A stretch of 33,600 bases of DNA, taken from the NCBI GenBank assembly GCA_028242535.1, contig JAOJYB010000011.1, forward strand, positions 1 through 33,600, written 5' to 3'. The notes beneath the pieces were generated by a model. That model was given only the letters and a program-made list of their open reading frames with translations, searched no databases and was not told the origin of the DNA. The position numbers were made by a program, and so were the translations under genes. Source of the stretch: Candidatus Nitrosopelagicus sp. Its GTDB lineage: Archaea > Thermoproteota > Nitrososphaeria > Nitrososphaerales > Nitrosopumilaceae. Each line of letters begins with the position of its first letter. Within the stretch, counting starts at the first letter, position 1. Shown here piece after piece: positions 8,918 through 23,750 of the stretch.

Positions 8918-10459
8918 ATGAAATTTTGTATTCTTGCAGCAGGTATCGGTTCACGTAATAATGTACTAAATGGTTTGCATAAGGGTCTATTACCTATTCA
9001 AAACATTCCGATGATTTCTCATGTAATTAGTAAACTTGAATCTAAACAAGAAATTATTGTAGCAGTAGGTCACTTATCTAATCAAATAATTTCTTATCTA
9101 AAATTTGTTCATCCTGAAAGAAATATAAAATTTATAAATATTGATCATTTTTCTGGAAAAGGTTCTGGACCAGGGTATAGTTTATTGCAATGTAAAGAAG
9201 AATTACAATGTCCATTTGTATTTGGTACAATTGACACTTTTTTTGATGAAGAAGTTAAATTTGATGTAAAAAATAATTGGATTGGCATAGCAAAAATTCC
9301 CTCTAATCACTCAAAAAACTATTGTATGGTAAAAGGTGAAAAAAAATTAGAATCACTATATTATGGAACTGGAAATACTGTGTATAATGGATTTGCAGGC
9401 ATATATGACTATGAAAAATTCTGGAATGTATTGGAGACATCTGGGTTAGTGAATAATGAGCATCAAGTTACATCGGCAATCGCTGAATTAAAAAACGTCG
9501 AATTAAAAAATTTCAAGAATTTCTATGATACTGGAATTGAAGAAAAATATGTGAATTTACGAAAAAAAATTGGCAAAGAAATTGTCTTTGCAAAAAATGA
9601 TGAAGCGATTTTTCTAGATAATAAAAAAGTTGTTAAATATTTCTCAGATGAGACTAAATGTAAAAATAGAATCAAAAGAGTTAGTACATTGCAAAAATTT
9701 ATTCCATCTATAACTAAATTAACTCCAAATATGTTTGGGTATGATTTTGTAGATGGCGAATTATTATCGGAAATTAATGATGAAGAAATTTTTCTAGAAT
9801 TTCTTGAGGAATTTTATTCGTTTTCGATTCACCATGACACCACTGAGCAAAAAAACTTCTCTTCAAATTGTCTCAAGATGTATAAAACAAAAACATATGA
9901 TCGAGTAAAACCATTCCAAAATTCGATAATTGATAATATCAAAACCATTAATGAGATTCAGGTAGACAAAATATCAAAAATACTCAAAAAGATTAACTGG
10001 GAACATATTGTGAAAACAGCACTACCTTCATATTTTCATGGAGATCTACAACCTGAAAATATTATAATTGGAAAAGATAATAAAATCACTCTAATTGATT
10101 GGAGAGAGTCTTTTGGAGATAATACTGATATTGGTGATCTCTATTATGATCTTGGTAAGTTGTATCATGGATTATTAATTAATGGAAAAATGGTTAAAGA
10201 TAAAAAATTTTCTTTACAAATTGAAAATACAAAAGTAACATTATCATATTCCACAAAAGATAATTTGATGAAATTTAAAAGAATTCTAGAAATCTTTTGT
10301 AAAAAACATAACTTAGATTATGATAACGTTCAACTCTTAGGCGCTTTACAATATCTGAATATTGCTGAATTCTATATGAAGACAGAACCAGAATACTCAA
10401 AATTTATATTTTTGTTAGGAAAGCTACTAATGACAGAAATAATAGGAAAAAACGACTAA
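8918..10459 (+). CDS. Bifunctional sugar nucleotidyltransferase-kinase (NTP_transferase + APH-like fusion)
   Basis: A 513-aa fusion. Residues 1 to about 220 form a sugar-1-phosphate nucleotidyltransferase: LAAGIGSRN (6-14) corresponds to the G-x-G-x-R loop, K22 lies in GLHKGLLP, and GTIDTFF near 103-109 holds the metal Asp. Residues about 225-513 form a choline/aminoglycoside phosphotransferase-like kinase: HGDLQPEN at 374-381 with catalytic Asp376, and LIDW with metal Asp404. The two activities would phosphorylate a sugar or alcohol and then activate it with a nucleotide, the same logic as LicA plus LicC or HddA plus HddC. Eight bases follow the cupin gene and two precede the SIS gene. The substrate cannot be named, but a heptose-type sugar fits the neighbours. 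Confidence 0.85.
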   Translation: MKFCILAAGIGSRNNVLNGLHKGLLPIQNIPMISHVISKLESKQEIIVAVGHLSNQIISYLKFVHPERNIKFINIDHFSGKGSGPGYSLLQCKEELQCPFVFGTIDTFFDEEVKFDVKNNWIGIAKIPSNHSKNYCMVKGEKKLESLYYGTGNTVYNGFAGIYDYEKFWNVLETSGLVNNEHQVTSAIAELKNVELKNFKNFYDTGIEEKYVNLRKKIGKEIVFAKNDEAIFLDNKKVVKYFSDETKCKNRIKRVSTLQKFIPSITKLTPNMFGYDFVDGELLSEINDEEIFLEFLEEFYSFSIHHDTTEQKNFSSNCLKMYKTKTYDRVKPFQNSIIDNIKTINEIQVDKISKILKKINWEHIVKTALPSYFHGDLQPENIIIGKDNKITLIDWRESFGDNTDIGDLYYDLGKLYHGLLINGKMVKDKKFSLQIENTKVTLSYSTKDNLMKFKRILEIFCKKHNLDYDNVQLLGALQYLNIAEFYMKTEPEYSKFIFLLGKLLMTEIIGKND

Positions 10460-10461
10460 GT

Positions 10462-11103
10462 ATGGATTATCTAGATTTAATTAATTTATATAAAAAAGAA
10501 TCATCTGACGTAGTGAATAACTTATCTTCTGATGACCTACAAAAATTTGTCAATTTAGTTTTAAATGCATATGAATCAGAAAAAAAAATATTTGCGTGTG
10601 GCAATGGTGGTAATGCAGCATATGTAGCTAATCTTGTCGTTGATCTAAACATGCATCCGTTTGTGTCAGAAGACAAATCATCTCATGATATAAAACGAAA
10701 TAATTTTCATGCAATTAATCTATGTGAATCTGCAGCTACATTAACTGGAATCACAAATGATCTAGGATTTAATTCAGTATTCAAAGAACAATTGAAATAT
10801 CAAGCAGAAAAAGATGATATTTTATTTTGTATATCTGGATCTGGAAATTCAGGTAATGTACTTGAGGCAATGGAATATGCAAAAAATATTGGTATGAAAT
10901 GTGTTATAATGACTCGAAAATCTCCTTGTAAAGCAGAAAATTTTGCTGATATTTTGATTCAGGTTAATGGAACTTCTGAATTTCCAGGACAAACTGGGAA
11001 TAATAATAATAATTTCCATTTTGAAGACTGCATCTCTAAAATTACGCATATGATTACAGGAATATTAAAACTAAAGGTTACACAAAATGATAAATCCAAA
11101 TAA
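10462..11103 (+). CDS. SIS-domain isomerase, GmhA-like
   Basis: A 213-aa sugar isomerase (SIS) protein. The phosphosugar loop CGNGGNAA is at residues 46-53, and the second site SGSGNSGNV is near residue 129. The layout matches sedoheptulose-7-phosphate isomerase GmhA. Some active-site positions differ: the GmhA pattern GNGGSAAdAqH-x-x-x-E reads GNGGNAAYVANLVVD, so the catalytic Glu becomes Asp, and the later QExH motif reads FEDC. A divergent GmhA, or an isomerase of another phosphosugar, is therefore likely. The 3' end overlaps the transketolase gene by 17 bases. Transketolase makes sedoheptulose 7-phosphate, the GmhA substrate, which supports a heptose-like pathway. Confidence 0.8.
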   Translation: MDYLDLINLYKKESSDVVNNLSSDDLQKFVNLVLNAYESEKKIFACGNGGNAAYVANLVVDLNMHPFVSEDKSSHDIKRNNFHAINLCESAATLTGITNDLGFNSVFKEQLKYQAEKDDILFCISGSGNSGNVLEAMEYAKNIGMKCVIMTRKSPCKAENFADILIQVNGTSEFPGQTGNNNNNFHFEDCISKITHMITGILKLKVTQNDKSK

Positions 11104-11869
11104 TCTGCGAAAACATGTTCTAAGAATGGTTTTTGAAAAAAAATCTGGTCACATTGGTGGAAGTTTTTCATTAGCTGAACTAATTTCATATCTGTATTCA
11201 AATTTTGATCTTGTGTCTAATGAAAAAAATTCCCCAAAACTTATTTTATCAAAAGGTCATTCAGTTCCGATACTCTATGCAGTTCTATATGAACTAAAAA
11301 AAATAACTGATCATGAATTATCCTTATTCAGAGAAATTAACTCTCCGCTACAAGGTCACCCTGATAAACACAAGCTGAAATTTCTTCATGCAACAACTGG
11401 TTCTCTTGGTCAAGGATTAAGTATTGCAATTGGGCATGCACTAGGTCAAAAAATTCAAAATTCAAAAAATCCAATTTTTTGTATACTTGGTGATGGAGAA
11501 ATGCAAGAAGGTCAAGTATGGGAGGGATTTATGTTAGCACCTAAATTCAAATTAAATAATCTGATTACTTTCATTGATTATAATGGCGCACAAAGTGATG
11601 GTCTAGTTAGTGATTTATTAGATCTTGAACCTCTAAAACAGAAAATTACCTCTTTTAATTGGAATGTTCTAAGCATCTCTGGTCATAATTTAGAAGAAAT
11701 TGAAAATTCTGTTAATGCTAATATCAATAACCAATATGAAAAACCTACTTGCATAATACTAAATACAAAAAAAGGCCACGGTGTATCTTTCATGGAGAGT
11801 CCTGAATGGCATGCAAAAGTACCTAATGAAGAAGAATACAAAAAAGCCATTGAGGAATTAAGTTGTTAG
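11087..11869 (+). CDS. Transketolase, N-terminal (ThDP-binding) subunit
   Basis: A 260-aa protein covering only the first domain of transketolase. KKSGHIGGSFS near residue 20, SKGHSVP, QGHPD, TGSLGQGLS and the ThDP/Mg motif GDGEMQEG with a later YN are all in place. It must pair with the subunit encoded directly downstream to be active. Split transketolase is common in archaea and in many bacterial secondary pathways. The reaction moves a two-carbon unit between phosphosugars and could supply sedoheptulose 7-phosphate to the SIS enzyme encoded just upstream, with which it overlaps by 17 bases. It may also serve the general pentose phosphate pathway, and its placement in a glycan operon is then notable. 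Confidence 0.92.
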   Translation: MINPNNLRKHVLRMVFEKKSGHIGGSFSLAELISYLYSNFDLVSNEKNSPKLILSKGHSVPILYAVLYELKKITDHELSLFREINSPLQGHPDKHKLKFLHATTGSLGQGLSIAIGHALGQKIQNSKNPIFCILGDGEMQEGQVWEGFMLAPKFKLNNLITFIDYNGAQSDGLVSDLLDLEPLKQKITSFNWNVLSISGHNLEEIENSVNANINNQYEKPTCIILNTKKGHGVSFMESPEWHAKVPNEEEYKKAIEELSC

Positions 11870-12777
11870 CTACTAGAGATGCTTTTGGAGTTCAGTTGCT
11901 CAAATCTTCACAAAAAAATAATAATATTATTGTCTTGAGTGCTGATCTTTCTAAACCAACTCGTACAGAAAAATTTGCAAAAGAATTCCCTGATAGATTC
12001 TTTGAAATTGGAATAGCTGAATCAAATATGATAGGAATAGGATCAGGTCTATCCGAATATGGTTTTAAAGTAGTAATGACTTCCTTTGCCACATTTTTAA
12101 CAGGAAAATATGACGTCATACGGGTATCTTTAGCTTATTCAAATTCTCCTGTGATTCTAGTTGGAACTCATGGTGGATTGGCAATTGGTAAAGATGGTGT
12201 TACGCAAATGGGATTGGAAGATATTAGCTTAATGCGTTCTCTACCAAATATGATAGTCATGCAACCGGCAACTGCAATTGAAGCTGAAAAAATGGTAGAC
12301 TATCTTCTAACATCCACTCAAACTAATCCTGTCTATCTTAGACTAGGAAGACAACCTGTACCTGAAGTATTCGATGAAAATTACCAGTTTATTCCTAACA
12401 AGGGTGTAGTATGTAGAGAAGGAAAAGAACTTGCAATTTTTGTTTCAGGATGTTTGCTAGATGAAGTATTTAATGCTGTTAATGATTCTGGAAAAGACTG
12501 TGCAATAATTAATATTCATACAATAAAACCATTTGATAAAGAAATTTTATTAAAATATGCAAAACAATGTGGTAAAATAATTACAGTGGAGGATCATTCT
12601 ATTATTGGTGGATTAGGTTCTGCTGTATCTGAAATACTATCGGAAGAATATCCTACATTACAAAAACGTATAGGACTTAACGACATCTTTCCTGAATCAG
12701 GTTCTCCTACAGATCTATGGGAAAAATATGGAATCTCTAAAAATGCTATAAAAAAATCAATATTGGATTTTATTTAA
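11863..12777 (+). CDS. Transketolase, C-terminal subunit
   Basis: A 304-aa protein with the pyrimidine-binding and C-terminal domains of transketolase. TRDAFG at residues 4-9, VLSADLSKPT, FPDRFFEIGIAESNM (with the ThDP-activating glutamate in GIAES) and THGGLAIGKDG are conserved, followed by the last domain with TVEDHSIIGGLGSAV. Translation starts at a TTG at 11863 that overlaps the end of the N-terminal subunit gene by seven bases; no ATG is available before the conserved TRDAFG. The start fits the usual beginning of these subunits. It is convergent with the HAD phosphatase gene, with an 11-base gap of mostly T. Confidence 0.92.
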   Translation: MLATRDAFGVQLLKSSQKNNNIIVLSADLSKPTRTEKFAKEFPDRFFEIGIAESNMIGIGSGLSEYGFKVVMTSFATFLTGKYDVIRVSLAYSNSPVILVGTHGGLAIGKDGVTQMGLEDISLMRSLPNMIVMQPATAIEAEKMVDYLLTSTQTNPVYLRLGRQPVPEVFDENYQFIPNKGVVCREGKELAIFVSGCLLDEVFNAVNDSGKDCAIINIHTIKPFDKEILLKYAKQCGKIITVEDHSIIGGLGSAVSEILSEEYPTLQKRIGLNDIFPESGSPTDLWEKYGISKNAIKKSILDFI

Positions 12778-12788
12778 TTTTTCATTTT

Positions 12789-13322
12789 TTAAACTGTCCA
12801 CTCTTTTACTGTGTTTGATTCTGGTATATTTTCTGAATCAAACGGTTTGAAGAATTTTTCCAAAATATGTAAACATGCTTCTGCAACAGCTCTGTCTCCA
12901 CCATTACGTGTTGTGACAAAATTAGCGTATTTTTTTGCAAGTGAATTTGCATTTCCTGGAGCTATTGAGTATCCAATCTTTTGGAAAACAAAATGATCAA
13001 AAATTCCATCTCCCATATAGATTACCTCTTTTGGATTGTAATGCTCGGAAATCCAATCTATTCTTTTCAGAACACTCACTGTATCTAATGGATATTTCAT
13101 ATCATCAACAATTCTACGTTTAGTAATTTCTAAACCATTTTTATCTCCAGTAATGAATCTAATCTCCATTAAATTTCTCAACAATGATAATGCGTCATTA
13201 TCATCAGGTCCAAATACTTTCATAGATTTTCCTTCTTCAGTATACGCAAACTGACCTGTGGTCATAACTCCATCAACATCTAACAAGAATACTTTTGGAG
13301 TGTTACTGCTATCTTTTCCCAT
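12789..13322 (-). CDS. HAD phosphatase, KdsC-like
   Basis: A 177-aa HAD-superfamily protein of the KdsC type (small, without cap). LLDVDGVMT carries the nucleophile Asp15 and Asp17, ITGDKNG is motif II, and YMGDGIFD is motif IV. NGGDRAVAEA near the end matches the conserved KdsC tail. Relatives cleave the phosphate from Kdo 8-phosphate, sialic acid 9-phosphate or heptose phosphates. I chose the ATG at 13322 over one at 13388. The extra 22 residues would be unlike the family, and a TATA box (13342-13351 on this strand) lies 25 bases before 13322, inside the longer version. It faces the transketolase genes and is divergent from the dehydrogenase gene. Confidence 0.82.
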   Translation of the reverse strand: MGKDSSNTPKVFLLDVDGVMTTGQFAYTEEGKSMKVFGPDDNDALSLLRNLMEIRFITGDKNGLEITKRRIVDDMKYPLDTVSVLKRIDWISEHYNPKEVIYMGDGIFDHFVFQKIGYSIAPGNANSLAKKYANFVTTRNGGDRAVAEACLHILEKFFKPFDSENIPESNTVKEWTV

Positions 13323-13341
13323 AAAACCTTCCTTATTTCGT

Positions 13342-13351
13342 AGTTTATAAT
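13342..13351 (-). promoter_or_regulatory. TATA-like box upstream of the HAD phosphatase gene
   Basis: Read on the minus strand this is ATTATAAACT, centred 25 bases before the ATG at 13322. It decides the start of the phosphatase, because a start at 13388 would place this box inside the coding region. Confidence 0.5.
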
Positions 13352-13390
13352 GGTAGGTGAGAATTTTTAAGTAATCTTTACAAAACAATA

Positions 13391-16675: not shown

Positions 16676-16792
16676 TTAGTGTATTGTTGAACCACCTGAA
16701 ACTATAATATTTTCTCCAGTTATGTAATTTGCATTTTTAGATATAACACTTGAGAGATGTATAGTTTCTTCAATTATACTAACTATCAAATA
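16676..16792 (-). pseudogene. Remnant of a short-chain dehydrogenase gene (C-terminal end only)
   Basis: On the minus strand the frame ending at the TAA of 16676-16678 encodes about 38 residues closing with NANYITGENIIVSGG and STIH. This is the standard C-terminus of FabG-like SDRs (Y-x-TGE/Q-x-x-x-V-GG) and matches ANYITGENILITGG at the end of the intact SDR at 17303-18049. An in-frame stop lies just upstream near 16793-16795 and no Rossmann or YxxxK region remains, so the rest has been lost. The DNA differs at many third positions from the intact gene, so it is not a recent copy. Confidence 0.7.
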
Positions 16793-16872: not shown

Positions 16873-17316
16873 ATGATTGAACCAACCGATGCTAAATTAG
16901 ACAATCTCCATATAGGACAAAAAATAGAATTTACTGAAGTTATTTCTGAATCAATGGTTGAAAAATTTGCCAAGTTGTCAGGAGATTATAATCCACATCA
17001 TATGGACGAGTCTTACGCTGAGAAAACTAAGTTTAAAAAAAGAATTTGTCATGGAATGTTGTTGGCATCATTATTTTCTAGGTTGACTGGAATGTATTTA
17101 CCTGGAAAAGGTTCCTTATTCTTCTCTCAATCTCTAAACTTTATTTCACCTGCTTTTATTGATGATAAAGTTACAGTAGAAGGGGAAATCGTTAAAATCA
17201 GTCGTTCTACTGGAATGGTTACAATCAAAACAATAATTAAAAAAGAAAATAATATACGACTTATTACTGGGGATGCAAAAGTAATAATTCAGGAATCTGA
17301 TCTTGCTAGCCGATAA
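16873..17316 (+). CDS. MaoC-like (R)-specific enoyl hydratase
   Basis: A 147-aa single hot-dog domain. LSGDYNPHHMD at residues 35-45 is the hydratase-2 motif, with the catalytic pair Asp38 and His43. KRICHGML follows and forms the rest of the active site. PhaJ and MaoC relatives add water to trans-2-enoyl thioesters to give (R)-3-hydroxyacyl thioesters, or run the reverse dehydration. It is the first gene of a four-gene run with an SDR reductase, an acyl carrier protein and an acyl-AMP ligase. Together these could process a short 3-hydroxy- or enoyl-acyl chain. The 3' end overlaps the SDR gene by 14 bases. No clear TATA box was found upstream. Confidence 0.85.
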   Translation: MIEPTDAKLDNLHIGQKIEFTEVISESMVEKFAKLSGDYNPHHMDESYAEKTKFKKRICHGMLLASLFSRLTGMYLPGKGSLFFSQSLNFISPAFIDDKVTVEGEIVKISRSTGMVTIKTIIKKENNIRLITGDAKVIIQESDLASR

Positions 17317-18049
17317 ACATATTCTAATCACTGGGGCCAACGGCGGAATTGGTTTTGCAATTACAAAATTATTAGTAAAACAAAAATCTAAATTAACTTT
17401 ACTTTATCACGAAAATAATCAGAATATTGAAAAACTGAAGAATGAGTCAAGTGAATCATGTGATATTGAAATTAAAAAAGTGGATCTTACAAATACAATG
17501 GAATTGGATAAGATTATCACTTCTATTTTGGAAAAACACCCAATAGATATTTTCATTCATTCTCCAGCATATCCGGCTCAACACAAGCCTTTTATGAAAA
17601 CAACCTGGAATGATTTTCAAAAACAATTTGATTTGCAAACCAAGTCATTTTTTCAAATTTCAAAATATCTTATTCCTCATATGAAATCTAAAAAATCTGG
17701 TAAAATAATATCTATTTTGACTGCTTATGTAGCTGGAAAACCTCCTAATGGTGTAGTAGACTATGTAGTTGGAAAATATTCATTATTGGGACTTACAAAG
17801 TGTATGGCTACAGAATTAGGTTCATTTGGTATTAGAGTTAACTCTGTATCTCCATCTATGGTAAATACTCCGTTAACCGAACCTTTACCTGAATACTTAA
17901 AGAAAATGATAAAATCACAAGTACCGCTTGAAAATAGATTAGCAGAACCTTCAGAAGTTGCAGAAGTAGTTCTTTTCTTATGCACAGACGGTGCTAATTA
18001 TATCACTGGTGAAAATATTCTTATCACTGGTGGTTACTCGATGCGTTGA
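17303..18049 (+). CDS. Short-chain dehydrogenase/reductase, FabG-like
   Basis: A 248-aa classical SDR. The cofactor loop is GANGGIG at residues 11-17. The catalytic set is Ser137, Tyr154 and Lys158 (YVVGK), and the end is ANYITGENILITGG. The usual NAG after the fourth strand reads HSPA, a variation within the family. FabG-type enzymes reduce 3-oxoacyl thioesters to 3-hydroxyacyl thioesters. Placement between a MaoC hydratase and an acyl carrier protein fits that role, although sugar or other alcohol dehydrogenation cannot be excluded. Translation starts at TTG 17303 inside the end of the hydratase gene; the conserved first strand begins six codons later and no ATG is available. Confidence 0.85.
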   Translation: MLADKHILITGANGGIGFAITKLLVKQKSKLTLLYHENNQNIEKLKNESSESCDIEIKKVDLTNTMELDKIITSILEKHPIDIFIHSPAYPAQHKPFMKTTWNDFQKQFDLQTKSFFQISKYLIPHMKSKKSGKIISILTAYVAGKPPNGVVDYVVGKYSLLGLTKCMATELGSFGIRVNSVSPSMVNTPLTEPLPEYLKKMIKSQVPLENRLAEPSEVAEVVLFLCTDGANYITGENILITGGYSMR

Positions 18050-18058
18050 TGATGAAAA

Positions 18059-18295
18059 ATGCCAATTGATACTAACGAATTAGATATGAAGCTAGAGGAA
18101 ATATTAAAAAAGATTGGATTAGATGATATTAATTTAGAAAGTACAATCGAAGATATTCCAGATTGGGATTCATTTACACACATTCAACTCATTGACGCGA
18201 TTGAAGAGAAATTTAAGATTGAAATAGAATTTAATGATGCAATAATAATGACATCAATTCCGATTATAAAGAAGAAAATAATGAATTATTTGTAA
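18059..18295 (+). CDS. Acyl carrier protein
   Basis: A 78-aa acidic helical protein with the carrier-protein layout. It has a first amphipathic helix, then IEDIPDWDSFTHIQLI, in which Ser38 of the D-S pair is the expected 4'-phosphopantetheine site, then EEKFKIEIEF and a last helix. The usual DSL reads DSF here, a variation also seen in carrier proteins of secondary pathways. The setting, between an SDR and an AMP-forming acyl ligase, supports transport of an activated acyl chain. Acyl carrier proteins are uncommon in archaea, which build isoprenoid rather than fatty-acid lipids, so its presence is notable. A phosphopantetheinyl transferase would be required and is not in this window. The stop overlaps the ligase ATG (TAATG). 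Confidence 0.88.
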   Translation: MPIDTNELDMKLEEILKKIGLDDINLESTIEDIPDWDSFTHIQLIDAIEEKFKIEIEFNDAIIMTSIPIIKKKIMNYL

Positions 18296-19899
18296 TGGAA
18301 GAAAATATATCACTCATAAAGCATCAACAAATTTCTAAAAAGTTTAAAATTGATTATAACAATATCAGAGAATTATTCTATGAAAAGGTGAAAGATGGAC
18401 CTGATGATATATTCTTAATTAGTCCAGGAGAAAATACAGTTGAATTTACATATGCGAAGCTAAAATTGTTAATAAAAAATACATATAATATTTTTAGAAG
18501 CCTAGAATTAAAAAGTAAAGATAGAGTTAGTCTAATTTTTCACAATTCGCCTGAATTCGTAGCATTGTATTTTTCTGCATTATGCTTCGGTCTTACTGCT
18601 GTACCAATAAATCCAGATATTGCGTCAAAAGAGATGAGATACATCATAAATGATAGTAAATCTAAAGCGATTTTTTATAGTAATGTGTTAGAATCCAAGA
18701 TTAAAAATATTAAAAATTTAGATGATGTAAAACTAAAAAAGATCACATCGATAAATGATCAAGAATTTTCTTTAAAAAATGATGACAGTTTTGAGGAAAA
18801 TGAAATTTCCGTCTATGACGCTGCAGTTACGCTTTATACTTCAGGAACATCTGGGAATCCAAAAGGTGTTATATTATCACATCTAAATTTACTTTCCAAA
18901 TCGAAAGCCATTTCAGAATGGTTCCATTTTGATACAAAAACCAGAGCACTTTGTATTTTACCATTGGATCATATAGCTTGGCAAGTTACCAACTTACTGT
19001 CTCCGCTTTATCAAGGCGGTTCTACAGTAATTGTTCAAGAAAAAGTGAGTTTACGATCTTTTTGGGATTTAGTAAACAGATATGACGTAACTTGGACAAG
19101 TGGGATGGCATCGATTTTGCCAATCTTGTTAAGCAGATCCAAAGAAAGGAAAGATCAAACATTAAAGGCAATACTATGTGGTGGGCAAATATTAACTAGA
19201 ACAGTACAAAAACAGTTTGAAGATAGATTCAAAGTACCTATCTTTGATGGATATGGATTAACTGAAACTACTGGTTTTACGTGTATCAATGGTTTTCCTG
19301 CGGAAAAAAGAAGAATTGGATCAATTGGAAAAGTATTACCAGCGAATGAAATGACAATATTGGATGAAAATAGTAAAGATGTGGGCGAAAATAATGTTGG
19401 TGAGATTTGTATTCGTGGCTATAACGTAACCAGTGGTTATCTAGGATTAAAAGAAAAAAATAAGGAATCGTTTCGAGACGGATGGTTCCACAGTGGAGAT
19501 TTTGGTTGGAAAGATTCAGATGGATTCTTTTATTTTCAAGGTAGAGAAGATTTTTTGATTATAAAGGGAGGAATGAATATCTATCCTGCAGAATTGGAAA
19601 ATGTGTTATATCAACACCCAGATATTATTGAATGTGCAGTAATAGGTATTCCACATAAATTGCTAGGAGAAGACATATGTGCATTTGTGAAATGCAAAGA
19701 AGAGAGTGAAGTATCGGAAATGGAATTAAAAGAATTTTGTAAAAATAATATTGGTGGTTTTAAACAACCACAAAAAATAGTTATCATAAATCTGCTTGAT
19801 GATTTAGATGATATACCAAAAGGGCCTACAAAAAAAATTCTTTATAGAGATCTGAAAAAATACTATATGGAAAAATACCAAAAAAACTCAAAGAATTAA
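18295..19899 (+). CDS. AMP-forming acyl-CoA/acyl-ACP synthetase
   Basis: A complete ANL-superfamily adenylating enzyme of 534 aa. The P-loop TLYTSGTSGNPKGV is at about 179-192, YGLTETTG carries the A5 motif, WFHSGDFG the ATP-ribose Asp, and GREDFLIIKGGMNIYP the hinge. The acyl-adenylate lysine lies in PKGPTKKILYRD about 20 residues from the end. It activates a carboxylic acid with ATP and loads it on CoA or a carrier protein. Because it overlaps the carrier-protein gene by one base, an acyl-ACP ligase similar in logic to DltA is likely. The sequence looks more like fatty acyl-CoA ligases than D-alanine ligases, so the acid is probably an acyl chain. Its end faces the MBOAT gene 65 bases away. 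Confidence 0.92.
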   Translation: MEENISLIKHQQISKKFKIDYNNIRELFYEKVKDGPDDIFLISPGENTVEFTYAKLKLLIKNTYNIFRSLELKSKDRVSLIFHNSPEFVALYFSALCFGLTAVPINPDIASKEMRYIINDSKSKAIFYSNVLESKIKNIKNLDDVKLKKITSINDQEFSLKNDDSFEENEISVYDAAVTLYTSGTSGNPKGVILSHLNLLSKSKAISEWFHFDTKTRALCILPLDHIAWQVTNLLSPLYQGGSTVIVQEKVSLRSFWDLVNRYDVTWTSGMASILPILLSRSKERKDQTLKAILCGGQILTRTVQKQFEDRFKVPIFDGYGLTETTGFTCINGFPAEKRRIGSIGKVLPANEMTILDENSKDVGENNVGEICIRGYNVTSGYLGLKEKNKESFRDGWFHSGDFGWKDSDGFFYFQGREDFLIIKGGMNIYPAELENVLYQHPDIIECAVIGIPHKLLGEDICAFVKCKEESEVSEMELKEFCKNNIGGFKQPQKIVIINLLDDLDDIPKGPTKKILYRDLKKYYMEKYQKNSKN

Positions 19900-19964
19900 A
19901 TCAATCACAAATATCATATAATTATTGTCTCAACTAACTTTTCACTATGTTAAATTATCATTTA

Positions 19965-21440
19965 CTAAAATTTAAAATATATGAAATCGGTTGGATTACC
20001 ATCATATAATAATAAAATTGATAAAATTCCAGACACTAAGAACAAACACCAGTAATAATAGTTCATATTAGCAAATTTTTCTACTAGATTATTCTTTTTG
20101 TACGAAATAAAGTGTATAACGATGAATAAAATCATTAAAAAGATTGATATTTTGTGTGATTGGATAACTGAAATTGTTTCAATTATTTGGAAATCAAGAA
20201 TAATATATTTTTGCATCGAATAAAATAGATGACTCATATCAGGTATTCTAAATGCAAGAAATGAGAAAAATATCAAATATTGTGTGGTTAAGATCGAAAA
20301 AATTTTTCCAAATTTAGTTTTAAAGAATTTATGATTATATAAAAATGGAATTTTACGTCTTAGAATAGTATGAATGCCTACAAATATTCCTTGTAGTATA
20401 CCAAAAATGAGAAAATTCCAACCGTCTCCATGCCAGAATCCAATTAACATAAAAGCAATCATCAGACCAAGAAATATTCTTAATGATGAGTTTCTATTTT
20501 TAAAAATTAGTGGTAAGTATAGATAATCTCTTATCCATAATGACAGACTTATGTGCCATTTGTTCCAGAATTGAGTTGGAGATGTTGCAAAATAAGGTTT
20601 ATTGAAATTTGCAGGTATTTTAAATCCAAGAATAAGAGCAGCGCCAATTGCAATATCAGTATATCCCGAGAAGTCACCATATACTTGTACCGCAAATGCT
20701 AAAGCTCCTAAAATAATTGTAAATGACTCTGCTCCAATTGGGTTGAAAAATATATCATCTACCAGAGGTGCAATATTATCAGCAAAAAACATCTTCTTGA
20801 TAAATCCAAATGCCATTAGTGTAATTCCAAATTTTATATTTACACTCTGAAAAACTATCTTTCGAATATTTCCTCCTGTATTATACTCTTGAATTTTTTC
20901 ACGTAGTTGTGGTAAGAATTGTTTTGCTCTCAAAATCGGACCTGCTACAAGCTGTGGGAAAAATGCAACGAATAATGCAAATTCAGAAAATCTCTTACTA
21001 GGCTCAAGTGAACCCCTGTAGACATCAATGGTATAGCTCAACGTTTGAAATGTATAGAAAGAAATTCCAAGTGGCAAGACTAAATTATAATATGGAATTG
21101 CAGTGGCTAAATCAAAATAATTTCCTAAAATATTAAATTGCAATATTGCAAAATCTGTATATTTAAAGAATCCAAGTAAACCAAGGTTTCCAATTAAGCT
21201 TATACTTAGAAGTATTTTTTTTGTTGATTTTTCTTTTGAATTATAAATCATTTTTGCAAGATAATAATCAAGTACCGTTGAAAAAATCAATAAAACAATT
21301 AGATAATTACTAGAAAAATAAAAAAAGTAATAACTTCCGCCCAACAGTATTAAATGTTGAAATTTTCGATGTTTGATTATTGCAATAGCTGCTAAAATAA
21401 AAACAAAAAAAACAACGAAATCAATTGTTGTAAAGATCAT
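19965..21440 (-). CDS. MBOAT O-acyltransferase (AlgI/DltB-like)
   Basis: A polytopic 491-aa membrane protein with about ten or more hydrophobic segments. It carries the AlgI/DltB signatures: LPLGISFYTFQTLSYTIDVYRG near 122-143, FPQLVAGPI near 161-169, VQVYGDFSGYTDIAIG near 251-266, FWNKWHISLS at 291-300, and the catalytic histidine His337 in GFWHG. Family members pass an acyl or alanyl group from a cytosolic thioester across the membrane to a partner on the outside. The adjacent SGNH protein gene overlaps by four bases and lies upstream in the same operon. The acyl carrier and ligase encoded convergently at 18059-19899 could provide the donor thioester. Confidence 0.92.
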   Translation of the reverse strand: MIFTTIDFVVFFVFILAAIAIIKHRKFQHLILLGGSYYFFYFSSNYLIVLLIFSTVLDYYLAKMIYNSKEKSTKKILLSISLIGNLGLLGFFKYTDFAILQFNILGNYFDLATAIPYYNLVLPLGISFYTFQTLSYTIDVYRGSLEPSKRFSEFALFVAFFPQLVAGPILRAKQFLPQLREKIQEYNTGGNIRKIVFQSVNIKFGITLMAFGFIKKMFFADNIAPLVDDIFFNPIGAESFTIILGALAFAVQVYGDFSGYTDIAIGAALILGFKIPANFNKPYFATSPTQFWNKWHISLSLWIRDYLYLPLIFKNRNSSLRIFLGLMIAFMLIGFWHGDGWNFLIFGILQGIFVGIHTILRRKIPFLYNHKFFKTKFGKIFSILTTQYLIFFSFLAFRIPDMSHLFYSMQKYIILDFQIIETISVIQSHKISIFLMILFIVIHFISYKKNNLVEKFANMNYYYWCLFLVSGILSILLLYDGNPTDFIYFKF

Positions 21441-22420
21441 TGTTCTTTCATCTCTGTTAATAACATCTTAGCAATTTCTTGAGAATAGAAATCTGTTTTT
21501 TTATCATGAGAAATTAAATGATCATGATCTACCCAAATATCTAACTCATCATCATATTTGTCATGTAATCTAAAAACCTCAAAATCAAATTCTTGTTCTA
21601 AATTCTCTAGCATATCGTCAAAAATTTGTTTTTGTTGAATAGGTAATTGCTCTAACCAATTTTTGTGATGTGGAACAGTGAAAATTATTACTTCAATTTC
21701 GTTACTATGAAGTTCATGAATTAATTCTTTTAACGCAGCATATGTTCTATTTTTTTCCATAGGATAGATTTCATTTCCTCTGAAACTTGCTAATTTCCCA
21801 CCCACTTCAAGATCTTTTTGTTCAGCAGGAATTTTTGCATTATCGTCCTTTAGAAAAAAAGGTGTGTTTGGATATGGTCTTTGTAATACTTCATCATATT
21901 TTCCATCCCATGTCTGGAGAAAATGATTTATTGTATTGATTGTTGCAAATTTTGGATTATCAATCAATCCGGAGTTTAACGGAAGTGAAAAAACTGTTAA
22001 GAAATCTCTAGCTCTTGGAAGTTCAATAAATGAATCTATAGGTTTTTCAATTGTACTTCTTCCATGACTGTAAAATGTTTGATAAGCTATACCATAAATT
22101 ACAATTTCTGGTTTTTGAGAAATAACCAAATCTACAGTTCTTAATCTCTCTTCAGCGTCAAATGAACCTTGACCTAAGTGAAAAACTGTATGATTATGAC
22201 CTTCAATACTTAAAATATCTGATACTATAGTTGGATTAATTGCAAAAGTATGACTAGAACCAAAAATAAATATTTTTTCATCCGGTAACTCTTGCAAATA
22301 AAATTTTTCATGTTCTTCATATACATAATCTGGTAAACTTGACATGGTTGCAAAAAATATTGTAAATGCAATTGAAAAGGAAATAATCAAACAAAATACT
22401 ATTTTTTTATTGCTGATCAA
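21437..22420 (-). CDS. Membrane-anchored SGNH-fold protein (DltD/AlgJ/AlgX-like partner of MBOAT)
   Basis: A 327-aa protein with one N-terminal hydrophobic segment (about residues 6-25) acting as signal anchor, placing the rest outside the membrane. IFIFGSSHTF gives the block I serine (Ser56), and WVDHDHL near the end supplies the D-x-x-H pair (Asp298, His301). The order fits SGNH hydrolases and the DltD/AlgJ/AlgX proteins that finish acyl transfer for an MBOAT enzyme. The gene begins at a TTG at 22420, as no ATG occurs before the anchor, and ends overlapping the MBOAT start (ATGA). It probably places the acyl group on a surface glycan or S-layer sugar. Plain esterase activity is an alternative. 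Confidence 0.78.
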   Translation of the reverse strand: MISNKKIVFCLIISFSIAFTIFFATMSSLPDYVYEEHEKFYLQELPDEKIFIFGSSHTFAINPTIVSDILSIEGHNHTVFHLGQGSFDAEERLRTVDLVISQKPEIVIYGIAYQTFYSHGRSTIEKPIDSFIELPRARDFLTVFSLPLNSGLIDNPKFATINTINHFLQTWDGKYDEVLQRPYPNTPFFLKDDNAKIPAEQKDLEVGGKLASFRGNEIYPMEKNRTYAALKELIHELHSNEIEVIIFTVPHHKNWLEQLPIQQKQIFDDMLENLEQEFDFEVFRLHDKYDDELDIWVDHDHLISHDKKTDFYSQEIAKMLLTEMKEQ

Positions 22421-22616: not shown

Positions 22617-23066
22617 TTGAAAATATTGTCTGTTATAACATTTTCAATGGATTTTTCTTCTCCGAAAGATAAATTATTAAAACTACTAACTGACTATGTT
22701 GAATTTCCAAAGTATCTTCCTCATCAAATAAAATCAGTAGAAATTATAGAAAAAACTAATGATTATATTATCACTGAAGAAACTCTACATTTCTCTACTG
22801 TTATTTCAAAAACTTTCAAGCAACAAACAAAACATTATGCTTATTCAAATAATGTGCTTAAAAGTCAAATACTTAGCGGACCGGCAAAAAATTCTACCAT
22901 TGAGATTATACTTGATGAAAAAAATTCTATTTCTCATATTATTGTAAATATAGACATTAAACTAGAATTCAAATACAAATTTCTATCGCCTCTCATAAAA
23001 AAATCTTATAAGACTTTTTTGATGAGTATTCTTTATAAGATGCAGAGCATTGCAAATTCAACATGA
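22617..23066 (+). CDS. START/SRPBCC-domain protein (Coq10/polyketide-cyclase-like)
   Basis: A 149-aa protein with the helix-grip layout. A first strand ILSVITFSMDF is followed by the short helix SPKDKLLKLLTDY, then FPKYLPHQIKSVEIIEK, a run of alternating strands, and a long C-terminal helix. The pattern D/E-F-P-K-Y-L-P is common in Coq10-like proteins, which bind hydrophobic ligands such as quinones or lipids. Starting at TTG 22617 keeps the first beta strand complete and agrees with the TATA box. The oxygenase gene follows after six bases, so both are probably on one transcript. The ligand is unknown; a lipid carrier or acyl intermediate is possible given the setting. Confidence 0.65.
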   Translation: MKILSVITFSMDFSSPKDKLLKLLTDYVEFPKYLPHQIKSVEIIEKTNDYIITEETLHFSTVISKTFKQQTKHYAYSNNVLKSQILSGPAKNSTIEIILDEKNSISHIIVNIDIKLEFKYKFLSPLIKKSYKTFLMSILYKMQSIANST

Positions 23067-23072
23067 GAAAAA

Positions 23073-23750
23073 ATGACTATAATTAATTGGGAAAATGTAT
23101 CTACACATTCTACTACATTCCAAAACCAATCTCCCTTTAAATTTGGATTTGTAGAAACTATATTTGAAAATTCATTTTATCAGAAACTTTTTGAAACTTA
23201 TCCTAAATTAAATGAGTTTAAAGACTCATCAGATATGTCAAAATCTCAATTTGTAATGGAATGGGGAAAAGAAAAATATGAACATATGGAGCCTGTAATT
23301 CCTGGAGAAGATCCTAAGTTTGGTAAAGAATGGAATGAACTAAAAGTATATGCCGAATCTGAAGAGTTTATCAAAATGTGGAGAGATTTTTCTGGAGTGC
23401 CTGTTAACAAAATAAAGGCTTTCAAATTTATTGCATATCGTAATGGGGGTTTTCAATTACCACATATTCATAATGTTGGTCCTAGCACAGTACAACTTTT
23501 CTTTTACTTTTCAAAAGGTTGGAAGGAAGGTGAAGCTGGTGGAACATATATGGCATCTGAAGAAGATGAATCAAAAATAATTTTTGAACCATATAATTTA
23601 GATAATACTATGGCAATATTTCATGATGGTCCTACCTCTGCACATGGAACTAGAATGATAACTAATAATCTTGAAAGAAAGGCCCTTCAAATAACATTGG
23701 AAGAATATAATGATGAAACTGGATGGACTGGCGGTAATCACAAAATCTAA
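23073..23750 (+). CDS. 2-oxoglutarate/Fe(II) oxygenase-like protein with an H-x-H metal motif
   Basis: A 225-aa protein with the double-stranded beta-helix pattern of prolyl-hydroxylase-type oxygenases. AYRNGGFQLPHIHNVG is followed by VQLFFYFSKGW, EAGGTYM, a strand with AIFHDGPTSAHGTRM, and ERKALQITLEEY. Candidate metal ligands are His131 and His191, and Arg202 could hold 2-oxoglutarate. The usual H-x-D reads H131-I-H133, so the carboxylate ligand is replaced by histidine. A changed metal site, a non-haem dioxygenase without 2-oxoglutarate, or an inactive protein are all possible. It is co-transcribed with the START-domain gene (six-base gap). The substrate is unknown; glycan or lipid hydroxylation would fit. 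Confidence 0.6.
   Translation: MTIINWENVSTHSTTFQNQSPFKFGFVETIFENSFYQKLFETYPKLNEFKDSSDMSKSQFVMEWGKEKYEHMEPVIPGEDPKFGKEWNELKVYAESEEFIKMWRDFSGVPVNKIKAFKFIAYRNGGFQLPHIHNVGPSTVQLFFYFSKGWKEGEAGGTYMASEEDESKIIFEPYNLDNTMAIFHDGPTSAHGTRMITNNLERKALQITLEEYNDETGWTGGNHKI

Follow-up and report, generated by a model that had tools for sequence, protein, structure and literature searches.

Six genes at the locus

The window, the whole 33,600-nucleotide stretch of DNA that was analysed, carries six clustered genes, all with intact frames. On the + strand lie genes for a MaoC-type hydratase, a short-chain dehydrogenase/reductase (SDR), an acyl carrier protein (ACP) and an AMP-forming acyl ligase, and on the - strand those for a membrane-bound O-acyltransferase (MBOAT) and its SGNH-type partner (Table 1). 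A first-pass annotation had located all six correctly, together with Ser38 of the ACP and His337 of the MBOAT, and had read them as a Dlt-like acylation module in a probable archaeon. We tentatively propose a two-part system, in which a carrier-based acyl-activating unit feeds a membrane acyltransferase.

The window is the entire contig C3 of a 1.0 Mb assembly that is 81% complete (G000 here; relatives are labelled G0xx-G2xx and loci L0xx-L1xx). Because the same assembly encodes an archaeal AmoA (388 bits), the host is, as judged from this match, an ammonia-oxidising archaeon, and by its kind of genome probably a marine one. A bacterial contig or misbinning is countered by AmoA and by the many window proteins with counterparts 40-70% identical in genomes of the same family, although not absolutely, because the window is all of contig C3. 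The remaining window genes include two NeuB genes and genes for cytidylyltransferases, a DegT aminotransferase, a SIS isomerase, a transketolase, a flippase, a capsule-type protein and sulfatase-like proteins. This content is that of a surface-glycan island by gene family, in line with the surface-glycan role first suggested for the cluster.

Table 1. Genes of the candidate acylation system, and carrier gene sets elsewhere in the genome and in relatives. Positions refer to the window unless a contig or locus is named.
Feature or gene order	Position	Strand	Remarks
MaoC-type (R)-specific hydratase, PhaJ-like	16873-17316	+	PF01575, 1.3e-19; hydratase motif GDYNPHH
SDR reductase	17303-18049	+	PF13561, 2.3e-47; TTG start overlaps MaoC end
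ACP	18059-18295	+	phosphopantetheine site WDS, Ser38
AMP-forming acyl ligase	18295-19899	+	PF00501, 1.6e-77; start overlaps ACP stop
MBOAT membrane O-acyltransferase	19965-21440	-	PF03062, 1.8e-21; His337; predicted C-terminal acyl-Tyr shuttle motif FIYFKF (Tyr488)
SGNH-type partner, N-terminal hydrophobic segment	21437-22420	-	Ser56 (GxS), Asp298, His301; overlaps MBOAT start by 4 bases
Possible accessories: SRPBCC-like protein and 2OG-Fe(II) oxygenase-like protein	22617-23750	+	same pair beside SGNH-MBOAT in G217 (L172 16062-17173)
Second carrier cluster: FkbH-ACP-VOC-AcpS	contig C23, locus L065 4116-7504		AcpS directly behind FkbH, ACP and VOC
G072: SGNH-MBOAT-ACP-FkbH-ACP-VOC-AcpS			one ACP, a second copy, 42 bp from MBOAT
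G064: SGNH-MBOAT-FkbH-ACP-MaoC
G096: SGNH-ACP-SDR-MBOAT			ACP and SDR between SGNH and MBOAT; hexapeptide gene not near
G082: ACP-ligase-hexapeptide-SGNH-MBOAT
G116: FkbH-MaoC-SDR-AcpS-MBOAT	L180 3833-8720		single same-strand run; broken frames in assembly

On the carrier side, the overlaps join MaoC with the SDR and the ACP with the ligase. The nearest solved relative of MaoC is the PhaJ-type (R)-specific enoyl-CoA hydratase 1iq6 (4.4e-28). D38, P41 and H43 are conserved across 19 aligned sequences, and D38 and H43 form the Asp-His motif of hot-dog hydratases of the PhaJ/MaoC kind. The SDR, first described as FabG-like, does belong to the SDR family, keeps Tyr154 and Lys158 and is 49% identical to its counterpart in G089, but it is not a clean FabG: the catalytic Ser of the Ser-Tyr-Lys set is replaced by Ala141, a position that holds Ser or Thr in three aligned homologues. 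The window ACP alone had no match in Pfam and a weak one to an ACP model of NCBIfam (7e-4), while a profile built with its relatives matched solved ACPs (1.7e-7). Matches to it were found in 40 of 250 genomes surveyed in the family, Ser38 is kept in 36 aligned archaeal homologues, and W36 is likewise conserved.

The ligase has a P-loop (TSGTSGNPKG), an A10-type Lys514 and the conserved residues T182, S183, G184, K190, G191, E324, D402 and K514, and its top NCBIfam models are of the fatty-acid CoA ligase type. A close source for it was not identified: the family holds no relative at E<=1e-60, acyl ligases in the phylum are only ~30% identical, and one contig scan turned up two bacterial ligases, 23-24% identical. 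De novo chain building is unlikely. Because the single ketosynthase match in the genome is weak and partial, the acid is probably loaded rather than built.

In the membrane pair, the invariant His of the MBOAT family corresponds to His337, kept by at least 90% of the sequences in an alignment of 25, and all 25 archaeal sequences end in FxYxx[FI]. The best solved-structure matches of the MBOAT are DltB (2.4e-27), although it scores 149 bits against the NCBIfam DltB model, below the cut-off of 375. Because of its fused C-terminal FxYxxF tail, we place it by sequence with the PatA/AlgI kind. The tail Tyr of PatA carries the acyl group and passes it to the SGNH partner, whereas DltB relies on a separate DltX and a carrier-bound donor (PMC12148441). 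Relatives of the MBOAT occur in 29 of the 250 family genomes, and none was found at E<=1e-30 outside the family among 200 genomes sampled from the phylum. The SGNH gene adjoins that of the MBOAT in 26 of 27 loci. The window SGNH protein itself had no match in Pfam; within its family, 5 of 21 aligned members match Pfam DltD (best 1.7e-5), and AlgX is matched at 0.028. Ser56 and His301 are invariant in these 21 sequences, while Asp298, present in the window protein, is N or S in several relatives.

Carrier genes in the same genome and in relatives

An ACP is expected to function where its phosphopantetheine Ser is accompanied by a phosphopantetheinyl transferase (PPTase) in the genome. Consistent with this, the genome encodes an AcpS-type PPTase (G000:C23:7166-7483), the only PPTase found there and the gene that the first-pass annotation had proposed to look for. 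It closes a second carrier cluster, in which the VOC-fold protein is methylmalonyl-CoA-epimerase-like; around the cluster lie a divergent hexapeptide acyltransferase, a polysaccharide deacetylase, a GT2 glycosyltransferase and a sugar nucleotidyltransferase. Clusters of the form FkbH-ACP-(MaoC or VOC)-(SDR)-AcpS recur in ~25 relatives and form the more widespread archaeal carrier system. In seven other relatives, an AMP ligase replaces FkbH beside the ACP. In the ACP tree, FkbH-type and ligase-type carriers form separate groups, and the window ACP falls, on a long branch, with the ligase type (support 99/91). The examined ACP loci sit among glycan genes (nucleotidyl transferases, GT2, NeuB, DegT and flippases).

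Two side observations concern these carriers. In two of the seven relatives with a ligase (L066 11874-14244 and L090 5732-8090), ACP and ligase are followed by LuxE, an acyl-protein synthetase, and LuxC, an acyl reductase, one member of each having been typed and the other assigned by clustering; this suggests that the carrier-bound acid is reduced there. G064 holds an additional ACP-VOC-ligase-formyltransferase-AcpS set (L182 6299-9845).

MBOAT and PPTase genes occur together across the family more often than chance would give. A PPTase is encoded in 43 of the 250 genomes, including 13 of the 29 that have an MBOAT (Fisher test, 1.8e-4, ignoring phylogeny and draft incompleteness). An ACP or a PPTase is present in 14 MBOAT genomes, six of which place carrier genes within 5 kb of the MBOAT. 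These six are the window genome, G064, G072, G082, G096 and G116. The carrier genes run in the same direction as the MBOAT in all but the window, with the exception of a divergent AcpS in G082; the broken frames in G116 reflect either decay or assembly error. The first-pass annotation had named a lack of such co-occurrence in relatives as grounds for giving up its proposal. This objection fails, because MBOAT and PPTase co-occur and carrier genes recur beside MBOAT-SGNH.

The linkage is recurrent, but it is also optional. Fifteen MBOAT genomes, including the single-contig G084, G088 and G117, keep the MBOAT-SGNH pair with no detected ACP or PPTase, which means that this transferase does not require a carrier. 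In G082, the linked and unlinked MBOAT copies are sisters in the tree. A specialised clade of ACP-linked MBOATs was rejected when all five linked copies were included (AU p 0.0005), while a clade of four was not (AU p 0.19). As the ACP-linked copies fail to group as a single clade, the tree points to more than one lineage in which the pairing either arose or was retained.

Elsewhere in the island, an NTP-transferase/kinase fusion, a SIS isomerase, a split transketolase and a HAD phosphatase follow one another at window positions 8918-13388, a row whose gene content resembles that of a pathway for a heptose-type sugar nucleotide. The stretch that separates the flippase gene from MaoC preserves ~35 codons of the C-terminus of an SDR (NANYITGENIIVSGGSTIH; 16677-16785, - strand), and the remainder of the gene is absent. 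We take this fragment for a truncated remnant, which suggests past recombination in the island. An Rfam scan of the window gave zero RNA families.

A possible acyl-transfer route and its alternatives

The gene content is consistent with the following route. AcpS, encoded elsewhere in the genome, would convert the ACP to holo-ACP; the ligase would adenylate a small carboxylic acid and load the acyl group onto the phosphopantetheine of Ser38. MaoC, and perhaps the SDR, would then adjust the beta carbon in the cytoplasm, the most likely product being a short (R)-3-hydroxyacyl or enoyl thioester. The MBOAT would take the acyl group from a phosphopantetheine thioester, most likely that of the ACP, via His337 onto Tyr488 of the tail, and the tail would pass it on to the SGNH protein at Ser56, for esterification by that protein of a hydroxyl of an exported glycan. 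The acyl identity, the ACP rather than CoA as donor and the glycan acceptor are what we infer here. As an example of the acyl group, 3-hydroxybutyryl is a guess, made because of the MaoC family and because crotonyl- and 3-hydroxybutyryl-CoA are intermediates of the thaumarchaeal carbon cycle.

This two-part system, in which a carrier-based unit of a surface-glycan island feeds an acyl-tyrosine MBOAT-SGNH transferase, is supported by the genome's own PPTase and second ACP, the MBOAT-SGNH pairing, the linkage and the Fisher association. It is further supported because the window and G096 have MBOAT-SGNH instead of the usual hexapeptide acyltransferase: they are the two ACP loci with the pair and without a hexapeptide gene. 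We hold it as a working proposal whose chance falls only slightly below even. The more specific version is possible but rather less than probable: that the archaeal tail-bearing MBOAT takes its acyl group from an ACP loaded by an interchangeable AMP ligase or FkbH and tailored by MaoC, SDR or VOC, and so esterifies surface glycans with lineage-specific hydroxyacyls.

A number of observations weigh against the two-part system, and most of them would be expected if the two gene sets were independent neighbours, adjacent because surface-glycan islands shuffle genes. The MaoC-SDR-ACP-ligase run would then serve a soluble GNAT or hexapeptide transferase that acylates an amino sugar in the cytoplasm, for instance with 3-hydroxybutyryl, and MBOAT-SGNH would be an ordinary O-acetyltransferase of the PatA/AlgI type using acetyl-CoA. 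Of the 36 archaeal ACPs in the examined loci, 30 lie within 6 kb of a soluble hexapeptide acyltransferase, mostly together with a polysaccharide deacetylase. MBOAT-SGNH persists without carrier genes in complete genomes, and the sister copies of G082 weigh against a fixed link. Known tail-bearing MBOAT-SGNH systems lack a carrier protein; for them, as for other non-Dlt MBOAT-SGNH pathways, the donor is believed to be acyl-CoA (PMC12148441). In the window, the carrier run does face the MBOAT-SGNH pair, as first described, but the ligase and MBOAT genes meet tail to tail across a 65-bp gap, and hence the two runs are not one transcription unit. In addition, Ala141 at the catalytic Ser position means that the SDR may be no normal, working ketoreductase, and the Fisher test takes no account of phylogeny or of incomplete drafts. 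Against independent neighbours stand the same-strand runs of MBOAT/SGNH and carrier genes in five relatives, the arrangement in G096, where SGNH and MBOAT flank the ACP and SDR and no hexapeptide gene is near, the second ACP 42 bp from the MBOAT in G072, and the window, where no hexapeptide transferase was found. We regard independent neighbours as a serious possibility, yet short of probable.

It is unlikely that the ACP-ligase unit makes a small metabolite, soluble or lipid-like, unrelated to the surface glycan. Archaeal ACPs do have partners (FkbH, VOC, LuxC/LuxE and ligase) that resemble starter-unit chemistry of secondary metabolism, but the cluster has no condensing enzyme and the examined ACP loci lie among glycan genes. 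That an archaeon acquired a genuine Dlt D-alanylation system is highly improbable and contradicted, since the DltB matches of the MBOAT and the remote DltD similarity of its SGNH partner are set against a sub-threshold DltB score, a fatty-acyl-CoA-ligase-like ligase and a MaoC and SDR for which D-alanylation has no place.

Ammonia-oxidising archaea carry a small carrier-protein toolkit (ACP, AcpS, and FkbH or a ligase) in variable surface-glycan islands, and some lineages place it beside an MBOAT-SGNH envelope acyltransferase. To our knowledge, ACP-dependent fatty acid synthesis is generally said to be missing from Archaea, and the toolkit offers a role for ACPs in archaea not expected to make fatty acids of the bacterial type. 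By sequence, the acyl-tyrosine shuttle also extends to archaea. The resulting prediction, that surface glycans of marine ammonia oxidisers bear short hydroxyacyl groups in ester or amide linkage, is testable by mass spectrometry. The composition appears to be new, as first supposed: the open-access literature, outside which most subscription journals lie, gave no matching description and no paper combining Nitrosopumilus with MBOAT, and among its papers on FkbH, archaea and ACP none, judged by title, concerns archaeal surface glycans.

Comparison with known systems

The membrane pair most resembles systems of the PatA-PatB/AlgI type, with which it shares an MBOAT with a catalytic His, a C-terminal FxYxxF acyl-Tyr shuttle and an SGNH partner. 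It differs in its archaeal host and in the carrier protein and loading enzyme that stand beside the pair in several genomes.

With DltABCD(X) teichoic-acid D-alanylation, the locus shares a parts list (ligase, carrier, MBOAT and a DltD-like SGNH protein encoded with the MBOAT) and an MBOAT related to DltB. The archaeal locus differs in its fused tail, its extra MaoC and SDR and its convergent runs, and no teichoic acid is expected. A DltB without a fused tail and with a separate DltX is not what we find: the MBOAT ends in FIYFKF, and no separate small FxYxxF protein lies next to it. No DltA model is among the 25 NCBIfam families listed for the ligase, and among those listed for the ACP there are weak generic ACP models only and no DltC; the ACP profile matches a DltC structure marginally (0.05). 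Strict Dlt membership is rejected on the kind of ligase and of carrier, the fusion of the tail and the absence of a DltX beside the MBOAT, and the 15 genomes with MBOAT-SGNH and no detected carrier also speak against the name. What survives of the first-pass annotation is a carrier-protein acylation unit beside MBOAT-SGNH in an archaeal surface-glycan island.

Bacterial pathways for N-acyl sugars use carrier proteins to build O-antigens and flagellin glycans, as in the tetronate of Vibrio cholerae O1 and in 3-hydroxybutyryl viosamine; the open-access literature searched gave no papers on these precedents. The likeness lies in an ACP, an acyl ligase and a reductase within a surface-glycan cluster, with LuxC/LuxE partners in two relatives; the difference is that the nearest acyltransferase in the window is MBOAT-SGNH and not a soluble transferase. 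FkbH-ACP modules load acyl groups, such as the glyceryl-ACP of polyketide pathways, and a conserved FkbH-ACP pair is found in the same genome and in relatives. The archaeal sets differ from these modules in that they lie in glycan islands alongside AcpS, either MaoC or VOC, and a hexapeptide acyltransferase, and the window has a ligase in place of FkbH.

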